From Gemmatimonadota bacterium (lineage in GTDB: Bacteria > Gemmatimonadota > Gemmatimonadetes > Gemmatimonadales > Gemmatimonadaceae): a stretch of 64,000 nucleotides of DNA. The notes beneath the pieces are model-generated. The model searched no databases and was not told the DNA's origin. It worked only from the letters and a program-made list of their open reading frames with translations. The stretch is taken from the NCBI GenBank assembly GCA_031127075.1, contig JARIFA010000002.1, forward strand, positions 1-64,000, written 5' to 3'. Positions within the stretch are counted from its first letter, which is position 1, and each line of letters begins with the position of its first letter. Positions 8,503-21,575 of this stretch are shown here, piece after piece. A program made the position numbers and the translations under genes.

Positions 8503-10302
<1,800 letters not shown>

Positions 10303-12799: not shown

Positions 12800-13828
12800 A
12801 TGGAGGCCGGCGACACGGCGACGGCGGAGGCACCGGTGGGCGAGCGAGCGCGATACATCCTCGGCGTAGACCTCGGGGGGACGAACATCGTCGTGGGCGC
12901 GATGCGCGCCGACGGGGCCACACAGCACGCGATGCACTCGGTGCCGACGCGCGCCGAGCTCGGCGCCGACGCGGTCGTGGCGCGTATCGCCGAGGCGCTC
13001 GAGCGCAGCATCGCCGAGACCTGTGCCGCCACCGGGGCCACCCGCGCCGACTTCCTCGGCGTCGGCATCGGGTCGCCGGGCCCGCTCGACCGAAAGACGG
13101 GCCTCGTGATCTTCACGCCCAACCTCGGCTGGCGTGACTTCCCCCTCCGCGACCGGGTGAGCGCCGCGGTCGGGCTCCCCGCCACACTCGACAACGACGC
13201 CAACTGCGCGACCTTCGGCGAGTGGTGGATCGGCGCCGCCAAGGGCGCGCGGCACGTGATAGGGCTGACCATCGGCACCGGGATCGGCGGGGGCATCATC
13301 CTCGACGGGACGTTGTTCCATGGCGCGAGCGACGTCGCCGGCGAGCTGGGCCACATCACCATCGATTCGACCGGCCGGCGCTGCGGGTGCGGCAACTATG
13401 GCTGTCTCGAGGCGTACGCCTCCGGCCCCGCCATCGCGGAGCGCGCCCGTGAGGCGCTCGCGGGCGGGGAGCCCTCGATCCTCCCCGAGCTCGTCGCGGG
13501 CGACCTGTCGCGGATTACCGCCGCCACCGTCTACGACGCCGCGCACCGTGGCGACGAGGTGGCGGGGCACGTGGTGCGTGACACGGCGAAGTTCCTTGGC
13601 ATCGGCGTCGCCAACTTCCTGAACATCTTCAACCCCGAGGTCGTCGTGCTCGCCGGCGGGGTGACGCAGGCCGGGGACGCGCTCTTCGAGCCGCTCCGTG
13701 CGGAGGTGCGTCGGCGCGCCTTCGCCCCGGCGGTCGAGGCCTGCCGCATCGTGCCCGGCATCCTCGACGGTAACGCCGGCGTGATCGGCGCGATCGCGAC
13801 CTTCGCCCAGCAGCACGGGCTCGCGTGA
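12800..13828 (+). CDS. ROK family sugar kinase (glucokinase-like)
   Basis: YILGVDLGGTNIVVGAM, LTIGTGIGGGIILDG, GELGHITIDSTGRRCGCGNYGCLEAYASG (ROK zinc motif). Confidence 0.93.
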   Translation: MEAGDTATAEAPVGERARYILGVDLGGTNIVVGAMRADGATQHAMHSVPTRAELGADAVVARIAEALERSIAETCAATGATRADFLGVGIGSPGPLDRKTGLVIFTPNLGWRDFPLRDRVSAAVGLPATLDNDANCATFGEWWIGAAKGARHVIGLTIGTGIGGGIILDGTLFHGASDVAGELGHITIDSTGRRCGCGNYGCLEAYASGPAIAERAREALAGGEPSILPELVAGDLSRITAATVYDAAHRGDEVAGHVVRDTAKFLGIGVANFLNIFNPEVVVLAGGVTQAGDALFEPLRAEVRRRAFAPAVEACRIVPGILDGNAGVIGAIATFAQQHGLA

Positions 13829-14811
13829 CGGGCGGGGCGCGACGCCCGAAGCGGTTGGGCGTCATCGGCAACTTCGTCTGGGATGTGATCCAGGGCCGGG
13901 ACGTGCGCACCGCGCCCATCTCGGAGTGGGGGGGCATCACCTACGCCTTGAGCGCGCTCGACGCGGCGCTCCCCGACGACTGGGAAATCGTCCCGCTCGC
14001 GAAGGTGGGCCGTGACCTCGCGGCCGAGGCGCGGCGATTCCTCGGGGGCCTCCGGCACATCGCCGCGGACGCCGCGCCGATCGCGGTCGACGCGCCGAAC
14101 AACCGCGTCGAGCTCATCTATTACTCCGATGAGCGCCGCACCGAGCGGGTGACGGGGGGCGTCCCCCCGTGGACGTGGGCCGGGCTGCAGCCGTTGCTGC
14201 GCGACCTCGACGCGCTGCACATCAACCTGATCAGCGGCACCGAGCTCGACCTTCCGACGGCGCAGCTCGTCCGCCAGCACTTCGCGGGGCCGATCTACTG
14301 CGACCTGCACTCGCTGGTGCTCGCGCGGGCAGCGGACGGCGGGCTGACGTATCGGCCGTTGCCGGAGGTGGCGGCGTGGTGCGCCTGCGTCGACATCCTG
14401 CAGGTCAACGAGGATGAGCTCGCGATGCTCGCGCCCGACGGGCTCGCACTGGCCGCCACCGCGATGGCGGCCGGCGTGCGGAACCTCGTGGTGACGCTCG
14501 GGAAACGCGGCGTGGTGTACTTCGCCGATCCCGGCTTCACGCGGCTCGCCGACCTCGCGGCGCCGGCACGCCCGGGGGCCGGCCCGCTCCGGACCGCGCT
14601 CGTGCCGGCGACGCCGCTCCGCGGGTCCGGCCCCGGGGACCCGACCGGCTGCGGCGATGTCTGGGGCGCGACCTATTTCTCGCGCCTCCTCGCGGGTGAT
14701 ATCTTGCCCGAGGCGCTGCGACGGGCCTGCGACGCCGCCGCGCGGAACGTCGAACACCGGGGCGCCACCGGGCTGGCCCACCACCTGCGGGGAGAACTGC
14801 ACGCGCCGTGA
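13825..14811 (+). CDS. PfkB/ribokinase-fold carbohydrate kinase family protein
   Basis: 328 aa; LGVIGNFVWDVIQGRDVRTAPISEWGGITYALSALDAAL ... LQVNEDELAML ... LVVTLGKRGVVYF ... PGDPTGCGDVWGATYFSRLLAG (GCGDVWGA resembles the PfkB GAGDxF motif). GTGA overlap with the upstream ROK gene. Confidence 0.8.
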   Translation: MTGGARRPKRLGVIGNFVWDVIQGRDVRTAPISEWGGITYALSALDAALPDDWEIVPLAKVGRDLAAEARRFLGGLRHIAADAAPIAVDAPNNRVELIYYSDERRTERVTGGVPPWTWAGLQPLLRDLDALHINLISGTELDLPTAQLVRQHFAGPIYCDLHSLVLARAADGGLTYRPLPEVAAWCACVDILQVNEDELAMLAPDGLALAATAMAAGVRNLVVTLGKRGVVYFADPGFTRLADLAAPARPGAGPLRTALVPATPLRGSGPGDPTGCGDVWGATYFSRLLAGDILPEALRRACDAAARNVEHRGATGLAHHLRGELHAP

Positions 14812-15698
14812 CCGCCGTCATCACCGTCCCCGCGTCCCTCGACGAACCGCAGTTCGAGCAGGTCATCGACCAGCTCGCCGCCGTGCCGGCCGACGCGAAG
14901 CTCCTCGTCGATGCGCGGCACTGCCGCTTCGCGACCCCGTACGGGCTGACCGGGCTCCTCTGCCTGGCGCAGGCGCGCGCGGCGCGCCCCGATTTCGTCC
15001 CGCCCGACGATGACGACGTCCGCAGCTACTGGGCGCGCTCGCAGTTCTTCACGCACGCCGACGGGCTCTACACCCTGCTGGGCAACGTCCCGCGGCGGCA
15101 GGGCGGCAACTCCGACGTGCTGCTCGAGGTGACGCCGGTCCGCGACTCCGCGGATGTGCAGACGGTGGTGGCGCGCATCCAGGAGCAGGCGGCGCACATC
15201 CTCACGCGCACGCTCGACCTCGAACCGCGCGCGACGATGCTCTTCTCGATGACCCTCTCCGAGGCGGCGTCGAACGTGATCGAGCACGCGGGCGGCGGCG
15301 GGTGGGTGATGGTGCAGCGCTACGACTGGTCGAAGCGGCGCGTCGGGCGTGAGGTGGTGCAGATCTCCGTCGCGGATGCGGGGATGGGCTTCCGGCGCTC
15401 GCTCGAAGGGAGCCGCGCGCGCGCCGTCGCCGACCGCTGGGACGATGCGGTCGCCCTCGAGACCGGCGTCGTGCAGGGGATCAGCCGCTTCGGCGACCCG
15501 GGCCGCGGCCAAGGGTTCAAGGGGATCCGCGGCTACGCGAGCAAGGTCGACGGCAAGCTCACCGTGCGCAGCGGCACCGCGCGCATCGCGCCGATCATCC
15601 CGCCGTGGGACGACGACCGCGCCCTCCGATCGGGGCTTACCCCCTTCCCCGGTGCGCAGATGAACCTCGTGATCCCGCGCCGGCTCGCCGCGCCGTGA
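14808..15698 (+). CDS. STAS-like N-terminus fused to HATPase (GHKL) ATP-binding domain
   Basis: N-term AKLLVDARHCRFATPYGLTGLLCLAQARA (STAS-like); C-term SMTLSEAASNVIEHAGGGGWVMVQ (N-box), VVQISVADAGMGFRRSL (G1), GQGFKGIRGYASKVDGKLTVRSGTA. GTGA overlaps at both ends. Confidence 0.7.
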   Translation: MTAVITVPASLDEPQFEQVIDQLAAVPADAKLLVDARHCRFATPYGLTGLLCLAQARAARPDFVPPDDDDVRSYWARSQFFTHADGLYTLLGNVPRRQGGNSDVLLEVTPVRDSADVQTVVARIQEQAAHILTRTLDLEPRATMLFSMTLSEAASNVIEHAGGGGWVMVQRYDWSKRRVGREVVQISVADAGMGFRRSLEGSRARAVADRWDDAVALETGVVQGISRFGDPGRGQGFKGIRGYASKVDGKLTVRSGTARIAPIIPPWDDDRALRSGLTPFPGAQMNLVIPRRLAAP

Positions 15699-16246
15699 CG
15701 ACCGTCGATCTCGCCTCCGCCCTCGCCGCCTCCGCCGGCGCGCCGCAGCCCCATCTCGTGACGCGCCCCGTCGGCGCGGCGATCCGGGTGCTCGTCGAGC
15801 GCCAGCTCGATGCGCTCGCCGCGGGGACCGTCGCGGTGCTCGACTTCTCCGGGATCGGCGTCCTCGACCGCTCGTGCGCCGACGAGTTCGTCGCGAAGCT
15901 GATGCTCCCGCGCGAGGGACCGGCGCCCACGCGCGAGGGCTACGTGATGCTGCGGGGGCTGCACGACGGGCACCTCGACGCGATCGAGGCGGTGCTCGAG
16001 ACCCATGGCCTCGCCCTCGTGGTCCAGCTCCCCGATGGCGCGACGCGTCTCGTCGGCGCCGTCAGCGCGACGGAACGGCGGCTCTGGGAGCAGGTGATGG
16101 TAGGCGCCGCGGCCATCGAGGAGCTCGCCGCCGCCGTCGGCTTGGCGGCCGAGGAGGTCCACGCGCAGCTCGAGGCGCTCGTGAGCCGCCGCCTGCTCCG
16201 GCGCGCGGGCGGCGGGGTCGCGCCACTCGGGGCACACGCCGCCTGA
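15695..16246 (+). CDS. STAS-like/DUF4325-type domain plus C-terminal winged-helix-like segment
   Basis: GTG 15695 overlaps the previous stop; VAVLDFSGIGVLDRSCADEFVAKLML; C-term LWEQVMVGAAAIEELAAAVGLAAEEVHAQLEALVSRRLLRRAGGG resembles a wHTH. Confidence 0.6.
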   Translation: MTTVDLASALAASAGAPQPHLVTRPVGAAIRVLVERQLDALAAGTVAVLDFSGIGVLDRSCADEFVAKLMLPREGPAPTREGYVMLRGLHDGHLDAIEAVLETHGLALVVQLPDGATRLVGAVSATERRLWEQVMVGAAAIEELAAAVGLAAEEVHAQLEALVSRRLLRRAGGGVAPLGAHAA

Positions 16247-16551
16247 TGGCCCGCGACTTCGCCCCGCTCCTCGTCGTCGGCTTCGTCGGCACCCGCCGCG
16301 GCGACGCCGACCGCGGCCCGCTCATCCGGATCCGCCCCGACGACGCCGCCGCGCGCCTCATCGCCGAGGGCGACCTCGTCTGGATCTACGGGCCGCGACG
16401 CCACGAGCTCGCGCCGGTCGTCCTCGACGAGACGCTCCCGCGCGGCGGCGTGGTGCTGCGCGATATCGCGGGGATCGCCATCTCGGAGATCGTCCGGCTC
16501 GTGACGCGCGATGCGGCGCAGCGCCCGGTCCTCACCTCCCGCCTCACCTGA
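16246..16551 (+). CDS. Conserved-looking small protein (101 aa), possible double-psi beta-barrel
   Basis: ATG 16246 overlaps the previous TGA; MARDFAPLLVVGFVGTRRGDADRGPLIRIRPDDAAARLIAEGDLVWIYGPRRHELAPVVLDETLPRGGVVLRDIAGIAISEIVRLV. The GDLVWIYGPR..APVVLDETLPRGGVVL segment resembles molybdopterin-dinucleotide-binding or Asp-decarboxylase-like barrels. Confidence 0.55.
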   Translation: MARDFAPLLVVGFVGTRRGDADRGPLIRIRPDDAAARLIAEGDLVWIYGPRRHELAPVVLDETLPRGGVVLRDIAGIAISEIVRLVTRDAAQRPVLTSRLT

Positions 16552-16557
16552 CACGCG

Positions 16558-17727
16558 ATGCCTGCGCGCGCCCCCCGTCGTCCCCTCGCCAGCGCCACCC
16601 TCGCCCTGCACGGCGCGCGCGGCGCCCATCGTGCCGGCGACCCGGTCGTCGAACCGCTCGTCCAGTCCGTGATGCATCGGCAGCCCGTCGGCACCACCGA
16701 GGGGCTCCTCTACACGCGGTATGGCAACACCCCGACCGCGGAGCGCGTGCAACGGCGCCTCGCGCTCCTCGAGGGTGCCGAGCGCGCGCTGCTCCTCTCG
16801 AGCGGGATGGGCGCGACCGCCTGCGCGCTCACGGCCCTCGTCGGCCCCGGCGACCATCTGCTCACCTCCTGCTACATCTACGGCGGGACGCACCGGCTCT
16901 TCTTCGAGGAGCTCCCGGCGATGGGGGTGACGATCACCACCTTCGATCCCTTCGTCCCGGGCGCGCTCGCGGCCGCCCTGCGCCCCGAGACCCGCGCCGT
17001 CTTCGTCGAATCGCCGGTGAACCCGACGACGCGCGTGCTCGACCTCGCCCCGATCGCGCGCCTCACGCGCCGCCGCGGGATCACGCTCGTCGTGGATTCG
17101 ACCTTCGCGAGCCCGATCAACTTCCGCGCCCTCGAGCACGGCGCCGACGTCGTCATCGAGTCGGCGACGAAGTTCCTCAACGGGCACCACGACGTGCTCA
17201 TGGGGATGGTGGCGGGGTCGGCGGCGTACATCGAGCGCGTGCTCCAGAAGGAGATGCTCTGGGGACAGACCCCGGACCCCTTCGCCGTCTGGCTCCTCGA
17301 GCGCGGACTCAAGACCCTCGGCATCCGCGTGGAGCGTGCGAACCAGAACGCCCTGGCGATCGCGCGGTGGGCCGAACGGCAGCGCGCCGTGCGACGCGTG
17401 CACTACCCCGGGCTCCGCTCCCACCCGGACCACCGCGTCGCGCGCCGGACGCTGGACGGCTTCGGCGGGATGCTCGCGCTGGAACTCGCCGGCGGCGCCC
17501 GGGCCGCGACGCGCGCCCTGCGGCGCTTCGAGGTGATCACGCACGCCACGAGCCTCGGCGGGGTCGAGTCCCTCGTCTGCGAGCCGCGCTTCACCTCGCA
17601 CGCCAAGATGACGTCACGCGAGCGCGCCCGCCTCGGCATCCCCGACGGCTTCCTCCGTTTCAGCATCGGCGTCGAGGCCATCGACGACCTCCTCGCCGAC
17701 CTCGCCCAGGCCATCGGTCCCGCATGA
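16558..17727 (+). CDS. PLP-dependent trans-sulfuration enzyme (cystathionine gamma-synthase/lyase family)
   Basis: GLLYTRYGNTPTAERVQRRLALLEGAERALLLSSGMGA...FVESPVNPTTRVLDLAPIA...LVVDSTFASPINFRALEHGADVVIESATKFLNGHHDVLMG. Confidence 0.93.
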   Translation: MPARAPRRPLASATLALHGARGAHRAGDPVVEPLVQSVMHRQPVGTTEGLLYTRYGNTPTAERVQRRLALLEGAERALLLSSGMGATACALTALVGPGDHLLTSCYIYGGTHRLFFEELPAMGVTITTFDPFVPGALAAALRPETRAVFVESPVNPTTRVLDLAPIARLTRRRGITLVVDSTFASPINFRALEHGADVVIESATKFLNGHHDVLMGMVAGSAAYIERVLQKEMLWGQTPDPFAVWLLERGLKTLGIRVERANQNALAIARWAERQRAVRRVHYPGLRSHPDHRVARRTLDGFGGMLALELAGGARAATRALRRFEVITHATSLGGVESLVCEPRFTSHAKMTSRERARLGIPDGFLRFSIGVEAIDDLLADLAQAIGPA

Positions 17728-19279: not shown

Positions 19280-20490
19280 TCCGACGGGCGGTGCTGGCCG
19301 CGACGCTCGCGGTCGGCGCGGCGACCGGGCTCGCCGCGCAAGTGCGCCCCTCGACCCTGCCGCCGTCGGCGCAGCAGGGGGTCGAGCGACTGCGAGAGGA
19401 GCAGGCGCAGCTCGACCGGCTCCGCCAAGAACGCGCCGATCTCGAGGAGCGGATGCAACGCCTGCGGAGCAGCGCGCGCGACGTGACCGCCGAGCGGCTC
19501 AATCTCGAGCGACAGGCGATGGCCACGGCGCGCCTCGTGCGCTCCCTCGAGCGGCAGCTCGGGACGCTGCAGGACGAGGTGCTGAACGTGAACTCCTCGC
19601 TCGCGCGGACGCAGGATGAGCTCCGCATCAAGCAGGCCGCGCTCCGCTACCGCGTGCAGGAGATCTACAAGCGTGGGGCGCTGCACGAGGTCGAGGCGCT
19701 GCTCTCCGCCGAGTCGTTCGGCGCCCTCGTCGCGCGGTACAAGTATCTGCACCTCGCCGCGCGCCGCGACCGCGCCCTCGTGGGGCGCGTCACCGTCCTC
19801 TCCGACCAGATCGCCTCGCAACGCACCGTGCTCGAGCGCCTGCGCTCGCAGATCGAGGGGAACCGGCGCGACAAGGAGGAGGAGGAACAGCGCCTGCGAC
19901 GGTTGCAGGGTCAGCGGACCCGGGCGCTCGCGCAGATCGAGGCCGAGACGCAGCGGGCGCAGACGCGCGTGCGGCAGATTCAGCGTGACGAGCAGCGGCT
20001 CTCGAGCGTGATCGCCGCCCTCGAGGCCACACGGCGTCGCGCCGAGGCGCGACCGAACGCCGCGCCGGTCACCAGCTCCCTGACGACCGCCGACCTCGGT
20101 CGCCTCGACTGGCCGGTGGACGGCACGATCGTGTACCGCTTCGGACGGCAGGTGAACCCGGACAACACGTCGATCCGCTGGAACGGCATCGGCATCGGTG
20201 CCGCGGTCGGGACGCCGGTGAAGGCGGTGGAGGCGGGCGAGGTGGTCTTCGCCGAGCCCTCGGGCACCTACGGGCTCACCGTCCTGATCCAGCACGGCGG
20301 CGGCGCGTACTCGCTCTATGCCTCGCTCCAGAACGCGCGCGTGCGGCGCGGCGCGAAGATCGCGAAGGGTGACGTCGTCGGCACCGTTGGGCAGGCCGAC
20401 CCCGACCTCCCACCGCGACTCCATTTCGAGATGCGACCGCGTGACGGCGTCGCGGTCGACCCGCTGGAGTGGCTGAGAGGCCGCCGATGA
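19276..20490 (+). CDS. envC: Murein hydrolase activator EnvC-like (coiled coil plus LytM/M23)
   Basis: Signal peptide [22 protein letters not shown], long coiled coil, C-term [48 protein letters not shown]...[17 protein letters not shown] (degenerate M23). Confidence 0.9.
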
Positions 20491-21575
20491 GCGAGCGTGC
20501 GGGCGCGAAGAAGGGCGCGAAGAAGGGCACGCAGAAGGGCACGCAGAAGGGCACGAAGAAGGGCACGAAGAAGGGCACGCAGAAGGGCACGAAGAAGGGC
20601 ACGAAGAAGGGCACGAAGAAGGGCACGAAGAAGGTTGCGCCGAAGGTCGCCACCGCAGTCGTCACGCAGGCGACGAGGCAGCCGACCGCGAGGCCCACGT
20701 CGGCGGCGAACCCGAAGGCGGAGGTCGGCGGCCTGCTCGGCGCCCACGTCTCCAGCGCAGGCGGCCCGGCACTCACCCCGGGGCGCGGCGACGAGATCGG
20801 CGCCACCGCCATCCAGCTCTTCACCAAGACGCCGAACCAGTGGCGCGAGCCCGAGATCGACACTGAGACGGCCGCTGCGTTCCGTACGGCGCTCGCCGCG
20901 AGTGGCGTACGCTTCACGACGTCACACGACTCCTACCTGATCAACCTCGCCTCCCCCGACGCCACGCTGCGCGCCCGGTCGCTCGACAGCTTCATCCGCG
21001 AGCTGCACCGCTGCCACGCGCTCGGCCTCGACGCGTTGGTGTCGCATCCGGGCAATTTCATCGATGACCGCGCGAGCGGGCTCGCCCGGAACGCCGACGC
21101 CATCACCGAGGCGCTCGAGGCCGCGCCCGGCCCGACGCGGCTCTGCATGGAGCTGACCGCCGGCCAGGGCACCGTCCTCGGCTCGACCTTCGAGGAGATG
21201 GCCGCGCTCCTCGCGCGCGTCCCGGCACGCCTGCAGCACCGACTCGGCGTCTGCCTCGACACCGCGCACGTCTTCGCCGCAGGCTACGACCTGATCGCGG
21301 AGTACGACGGCGTCTGGATGCGCTTCGCCGACGTCATCGGGCTCGAGCGGCTGGGCGTACTGCACCTCAACGACTCCGCCGTGCCGTTCCACTCGCGCAA
21401 GGACCGCCACGCCTTGATCGGCGAGGGACACATCGGCGATGCCCCGTTCCAGCGCATCATGACCGACCCGCGACTCCGCGATGTCCCGAAGATCCTCGAG
21501 ACGCCGAAGGGTGACGATATGGTGACGAACGACCGCCGGATGCTGGCGAAGCTCCGAGGGTTCGCCGCCGCGTGA
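20487..21575 (+). CDS. nfo: Deoxyribonuclease IV (endonuclease IV) with Lys-rich N-terminal repeat tail
   Basis: LLGAHVSSAGGPALTPGRGDEIGATAIQLFTKTPNQW...GLDALVSHPGNF...MELTAGQGTVLGSTFEE...GVCLDTAHVFAAGYDL...HLNDSAVPFHSRKDRHALIGEGHIG. Confidence 0.95.
   Translation: MSERAGAKKGAKKGTQKGTQKGTKKGTKKGTQKGTKKGTKKGTKKGTKKVAPKVATAVVTQATRQPTARPTSAANPKAEVGGLLGAHVSSAGGPALTPGRGDEIGATAIQLFTKTPNQWREPEIDTETAAAFRTALAASGVRFTTSHDSYLINLASPDATLRARSLDSFIRELHRCHALGLDALVSHPGNFIDDRASGLARNADAITEALEAAPGPTRLCMELTAGQGTVLGSTFEEMAALLARVPARLQHRLGVCLDTAHVFAAGYDLIAEYDGVWMRFADVIGLERLGVLHLNDSAVPFHSRKDRHALIGEGHIGDAPFQRIMTDPRLRDVPKILETPKGDDMVTNDRRMLAKLRGFAAA
20505..20636 (+). repeat. 12-bp in-frame tandem repeat (about 11 units) encoding (A/T)(K/Q)KG
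   Basis: gcgaagaagggc/acgaagaagggc/acgcagaagggc units; protein AKKG AKKG TQKG TQKG TKKG TKKG TQKG TKKG TKKG TKKG TKKV. Confidence 0.95.

Follow-up and report, generated by a model that had tools for sequence, protein, structure and literature searches.

A split STAS-HATPase and DUF4325-like winged-helix gene pair conserved beside two sugar kinases across the Gemmatimonadetes

Background

In nearly every sampled member of the class Gemmatimonadetes, a pair of adjacent genes encoding a STAS-HATPase protein and a STAS-like winged-helix protein is found next to the genes of a translation factor and two sugar kinases. We studied this pair in a stretch of 64,000 nucleotides (nt) from a Gemmatimonadota bacterium (assembly GCA_031127075.1, contig JARIFA010000002.1, positions 1 to 64,000 of the forward strand), hereafter called the window, where it is part of a five-gene cassette at 12800-16551 encoding a ROK kinase, a PfkB kinase, the STAS+HATPase protein (SH), the STAS-like+winged-helix protein (S4) and a lone molybdopterin-binding barrel (B5). 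SH-S4 is a new form of a known but apparently uncharacterised module, STAS-HATPase-DUF4325, which is split here, has a winged helix added and has become a near-universal gene of a whole class. Our best explanation, held with moderate confidence and built on comparative sequence analysis and structural models, is that SH and S4 probably constitute a vertically inherited, class-wide two-protein switch in which SH would act as an ATP-dependent kinase or clamp on S4, with the winged helix as output.

DUF4325, a domain of unknown function, is named by just two papers in a library of 5.4 million, one of which lists it as a hypothetical phage protein. The relative described here is near-universal, mostly single-copy and, in almost all loci examined, located next to a matching ATPase. 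The invariant residues of both proteins point to mutations to make, and the pair offers a clean test case for HATPase/STAS-like pairs in general and for the question whether partner switching can dispense with a PP2C phosphatase or with a sigma factor.

Results and discussion

SH (14808-15698, plus strand, 296 amino acids) possesses an N-terminal STAS domain, spanning residues 1-96 (14808-15095) in the AlphaFold2 model, followed by a GHKL/HATPase domain. Pfam recognises HATPase_c (E 3e-4) and, weakly, STAS_2, and this architecture is further supported by the model, with a predicted local distance difference test (pLDDT) score of 93.2, and by profile comparison; the models of SH and S4 were built with 40-41 sequences. 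Foldseek related SH to histidine-kinase catalytic and ATP-binding (CA) domains and to the SiaB and RsbW folds, with UsfX/RsfB among the resemblances, at E-values that are modest for both SH and S4, as expected of separate small domains. In searches of PDB sequences, nothing closely related to SH, S4 or this PfkB was found. The ATP site is intact: in all 121 SH sequences E152, N156 and H160 of the N box (EAASNVIEHA, E152-A161, 15261-15290), D190, G192 and G194 of the G1 motif (DAGMGF, residues 190-195, 15375-15392) and R233, G234 and G236 of the G2 motif (GRGQG, residues 232-236, 15501-15515) are invariant, the core positions that vary being G232 (118/121) and Q235 (119/121). An earlier reading of the window, made by a model from the sequence alone and called here the sequence-only reading, had proposed an anti-sigma-type HATPase and named this residue check, which the protein passes. 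The STAS domain of SH carries Pro44 in 120 of the 121 rows, the remaining row having a gap, at what we take, by motif alignment, to be the usual phosphoserine position; because of this proline, the domain is more likely to serve in sensing or dimerisation than as a substrate.

S4 (15695-16246, plus strand, 183 amino acids) consists of a DUF4325-like STAS domain and a C-terminal winged helix, as indicated by weak Pfam winged-helix matches, by the AlphaFold2 model (pLDDT 92.0) and by comparison with a DUF4325 profile, while Foldseek returned an RsbS-like STAS domain and an ArsR-type winged helix. Across 120 sequences, T23, R24, G27, R31, D50, D58, S60, C61, A62, D63 and E64 are invariant. Most of these fall into two signatures, LVTRPVGAAIR (residues 21-31, 15755-15787) and D58-x-S-C-A-D-E64 (15866-15886), the latter at the N-terminal end of STAS helix 2, which covers residues 59-73 in the model; position 59 is mostly Phe, Tyr or Arg, next to the invariant Ser60. 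The window's own S4 has Val at residue 26 (15770-15772), a position occupied by Thr in the other 119 aligned sequences (TRxTG motif).

The relationship that explains the pair emerged from profile comparison. The first domain of S4 carries the DUF4325 signature (SR/TR..G...R, a DF strand and S-x-A-D-E) and aligns to DUF4325 domains collected from the class with an hhalign probability (P) of 96.3 and E 2e-9. Many DUF4325 proteins of the class are about 440 amino acids long and run from a STAS-like N-terminus through a HATPase to DUF4325 in a single chain; a fused protein of this kind is also encoded on the Nostoc plasmid pANSO36B (WP_251960854). SH matches the two N-terminal domains (STAS+HATPase) of the fused proteins of the class in an alignment of 263 columns (P 98.8, E 7e-17), and the STAS domain of S4 matches the DUF4325 part at their C-terminus (P 94, E 1e-7); in control comparisons of SH with DUF4325 alone and of SH with S4 no match was obtained. 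A two-gene form is encoded on plasmid pAACI02 of Alicyclobacillus (Bacillota), as proteins of 297 and 102 amino acids (WP_218917127 and WP_049763381) whose genes lie 6 nt apart, and its halves match SH (P 93.6, E 2e-7) and S4 (P 95.2, E 3e-8).

On these comparisons, SH-S4 appears to be the STAS-HATPase-DUF4325 module in a split form, filed as a variant because S4 is a diverged relative and stays below the Pfam cut-off for PF14213. As in the module, the order is STAS-HATPase and then DUF4325, with SH and S4 matching its two halves, and the HATPase is either fused to DUF4325 or encoded directly upstream of it. In the window the two genes follow one another as the domains do in the fused proteins, so that, by the classical fusion argument, SH and S4 probably work together. 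In contrast to both the fused and the split module, S4 has a C-terminal winged helix, which is a new element, and its DUF4325 domain has diverged; moreover, it is near-universal in its class, whereas proper DUF4325 proteins occur there sporadically (29/295 genomes), and a DUF4325 family search gave no match in the window's genome. The sequence-only reading had seen in the pair an unusual, partner-switching-like unit; the pair is indeed conserved and partner-switch-like yet non-canonical, but the DUF4325 relationship had been missed.

Two single-chain proteins, L161:1435-2514 and L184, combine a winged helix, a HATPase and DUF4325; they seem to be uncharacterised and may be DNA-binding ATPases. 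They share with SH-S4 the helix-turn-helix, HATPase and DUF4325 domain types, but their helix-turn-helix is N-terminal and basic, their HATPase is much less SH-like and an N-terminal STAS domain was not detected.

Of 249 genomes sampled throughout the phylum, 237 have an S4 homologue, which is nearly always single-copy. In 40 loci picked for diversity, lepA-ROK-PfkB-SH-S4 is the usual order, so that the arrangement is kept across a class and is not the property of a single strain, as the sequence-only reading had wished to see checked. Among further public loci (the best 80 of 380 SH relatives in a genome scan, nearly all from Gemmatimonadota or a group within it), SH adjoins S4 and PfkB adjoins SH in 79/79 of the loci holding both. 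Genes after S4 vary by family, and no conserved partner such as a phosphatase or a sigma factor was found 3' of it. The distances of PfkB, SH and S4 follow those of LepA (r 0.71-0.84), a pattern consistent with vertical descent. A mobile or phage origin was rejected, as a plasmid search gave no match to SH and viral contigs held no relative of S4; a role as defence system was rejected as well, since no PADLOC family fits and a DrmA match (14 bits) covers the HATPase stretch only.

The absences delimit the unit. SH and S4 are jointly absent from G236, G096, both genomes of group f8 and the six genomes of group f10, two of which (G001 and G003) have nothing beyond weak winged-helix matches; sampled genomes without S4 also lack SH, except G233, which has PfkB and a truncated SH, and in G131 the S4 match is merely partial. 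The kinases, on the other hand, are separable from the pair: G110, a genome of 2.0 Mb, keeps lepA-SH-S4 but has neither this PfkB nor a ROK gene alongside, its congener G122 carries S4 and lacks this PfkB, and in the f8 genomes G097 and G178 a diverged PfkB adjoins a ROK-like gene in the absence of SH and S4, with, in G178, a LepA-like gene upstream and a pyridoxal phosphate (PLP) enzyme following. Because SH and S4 co-occur while the kinases can be parted from them, the cassette is a conserved neighbourhood around a tight SH-S4 pair, with PfkB as its nearest associate. The five-gene unit suggested earlier thus holds for SH and S4 as a conserved pair and not as an indivisible whole, B5 having been found, among the 40 diverse loci, in one family only. 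ROK, B5 and the PLP enzyme are best read as neighbours and not as parts of the switch, whereas PfkB, of all neighbours the one most tightly co-translated with it, could be its client or the source of its signal.

As to mechanism, the motif conservation and the fold indicate that SH would bind ATP, and the fused homologues, gene adjacency and co-absence suggest that it would dock on the DUF4325-type STAS domain of S4. SH may then phosphorylate S4, with Ser60 as best acceptor candidate, or its grip on S4 may change with the ATP/ADP state, and the winged helix of S4 would be the output arm, more likely through protein binding than through a specific DNA site. Several points weigh against this switch. 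Ser60 is placed by motif alignment one residue C-terminal to the canonical phosphoserine of SpoIIAA/RsbV, at whose own position S4 mostly has Phe, Tyr or Arg, and the L161 and L184 relatives have Ala in place of Ser60. In RbaV, likewise, a pair of adjacent serines is considered (PMC8256260). S4 scores 12.5 bits for PF14213 against a Pfam cut-off of 23; furthermore, the absences come from draft genomes and may be assembly gaps, and genes of a single lineage can stay conserved neighbours even if their products do not interact physically.

The last of these points leads to the strongest alternative, that of a conserved housekeeping neighbourhood around lepA only, in which the kinases and SH-S4 are co-expressed and functionally independent. 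We regard it as a tentative but serious possibility, favoured by the f8 genomes with ROK-PfkB and no SH-S4, by G110 with the reverse, by flanking genes that differ between families and by distances that follow LepA as vertical descent predicts. Against it, the 4-nt overlap is kept far more often between PfkB and SH (101/115 loci) than between ROK and PfkB (33/104), the value for SH/S4 being 65/118 (starts chosen by a nearest-start rule, in loci mostly from the window's own family), and PfkB is much more diverged in the SH-less f8 genomes.

Alternatively, S4 could be a DNA-binding transcription factor, with SH gating its winged helix and with promoter binding, not sigma release, as the output. 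The winged helix (residues 124-178, 16064-16228) is matched by Foldseek to the ArsR type with a probability of about 1.0, and the distant L161 and L184 proteins bear basic winged helices, with net charges of +10 and +9, on a HATPase-DUF4325 chain. In S4, however, this fold is conserved without the basic, conserved recognition helix and wing expected of the ArsR/MarR type: the mean net charge is -0.9 for the domain and +0.9 for helix plus wing, mean identity is 27.5% for the domain and 28% for the recognition helix, as opposed to 58% in the STAS core, and an operator search in aligned ROK upstream regions revealed no conserved site or footprint. Given a winged helix of low conservation that is not basic, and with no upstream footprint found, DNA binding by S4 is doubtful and a protein partner is the better bet; we consider the transcription factor reading rather unlikely.

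PfkB might also supply the signal, by making or consuming a phosphorylated sugar for which the degenerate STAS domain of SH would be the sensor. The coupling of PfkB to SH, the intact PfkB motifs and a conserved SH STAS motif from which the usual phosphoacceptor is missing agree with such a metabolite-sensing switch, yet G110 keeps SH-S4 without this PfkB, and we deem it improbable. The boldest version of the switch, namely a core regulator of the class in which an ATP-driven STAS switch with winged-helix output operates without sigma factor or PP2C and is wired by translation to PfkB so that sugar metabolism sets it directly, is in our estimate unlikely.

Returning to the preferred two-protein switch, a comparison with partner switching shows that SH-S4 does not conform to the canonical Rsb type. 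With RsbU-RsbV-RsbW-sigmaB and SpoIIE-SpoIIAA-SpoIIAB-sigmaF (PMC8256260) it shares a HATPase and STAS pair with N, G1 and G2 motifs and a plausible serine at STAS helix 2. In contrast to these systems, SH-S4 has an extra STAS domain on the HATPase and a winged helix on the STAS protein, its candidate phosphoserine position is shifted and, as the sequence-only reading had stated for the cassette, a Pfam scan of cassette and neighbour genes found neither a sigma factor nor a PP2C (SpoIIE-type) phosphatase. Because six f5 genomes that are 89-94% complete (G110, G122, G085, G103, G182 and G132) keep S4 and, in a search confined to the SpoIIE family of phosphatases, lack a member of it, a canonical PP2C reset appears not to be essential for SH-S4. 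SiaABCD (PMC8457831), SypA/SypE (PMC10120452) and RbaVWY (PMC3999984) demonstrate that pairs of this sort are able to act on something else than a known sigma factor, and SiaB-SiaC, which is among the Foldseek matches of SH, acts on a diguanylate cyclase, a non-sigma output of a STAS/HATPase pair (PMC8457831); SH-S4 differs from all three in domain make-up, and they were not found as close sequence relatives.

In the window's genome, on another contig (G000:C92:6097-8082, L173), a SpoIIE-type phosphatase gene lies near an RsbW-like HATPase gene on the same strand, and the two are probably a separate canonical partner-switching module. That SH is an ordinary anti-sigma factor and S4 its antagonist, with the sigma factor and the PP2C phosphatase that resets S4 both encoded elsewhere, seems very improbable to us, for although the fold of SH resembles RsbW/RsbV and UsfX/RsfB and SpoIIE-type phosphatases occur in the genome of the window as well as in each of the 20 relatives searched, that separate RsbW-like gene and the f5 genomes speak against it and SH matches DUF4325-associated HATPases far better than RsbW.

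Neighbouring genes and further observations

The five open reading frames (ORFs) and their junctions are exactly those of the sequence-only reading, and its domain calls for the first four proteins were supported by Pfam and, for the third and fourth, by AlphaFold2 and Foldseek. GTGA overlaps of 4 nt join 12800-13828, 13825-14811, 14808-15698 and 15695-16246, and the B5 ORF (16246-16551) starts via TGATG, overlapping S4 by 1 nt. All five genes lie on the plus strand. The first (12800-13828) encodes a ROK-family, glucokinase-like sugar kinase (PF00480, E 4e-73) which at 255 bits falls just short of the TIGR00744 cut-off of 260 and possesses the DNDAN motif and the zinc motif CGCGNYGCLE. The second (13825-14811) encodes a divergent PfkB-family kinase (PF00294, E 6e-12) with NEDE and GDPTGCGD motifs in the window protein; across 35 sequences WGG, N195, E198 and G275-C-G-D278, the catalytic GxGD motif, are invariant. 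For the moonlighting of these kinases that had been suggested no evidence was found, the catalytic motifs of both looking ordinary.

B5 is a stand-alone molybdopterin-dinucleotide-binding domain (Molydop_binding, PF01568, E 5e-8), in agreement with the double-psi barrel proposed for it, and among the 40 diverse loci it was found solely in the window's own family. It is separated by 6 nt from the gene of a Cys/Met-metabolism PLP enzyme (16558-17727, plus strand; PF01053, E 1e-117), which follows S4 or B5 in many loci; in the diverse set, the order of the window runs on with this enzyme, FtsE, FtsX and an EnvC-like gene. The upstream anchor of the neighbourhood, lepA (elongation factor 4, EF4; 8503-10302, plus strand), was named by sequence inspection and is located upstream of ROK elsewhere too; in the window, three minus-strand genes part it from ROK.

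In genome G032 of group f6, an RsbRD_N-STAS gene and, directly behind it, an RsbS-like STAS gene (L048:12085-13365) form a stressosome pair about 3.5 kb downstream of S4, and the same genome contains a second, partial SH-like HATPase (L155, G032:C35:16949-17350; E 3e-22, profile positions 147-296). Finally, an apurinic/apyrimidinic (AP) endonuclease ORF of the triosephosphate isomerase (TIM) barrel type (PF01261) in the window has a long lysine-rich tandem repeat at its start (KKGTKKGTQKGT..., 20469-20690).

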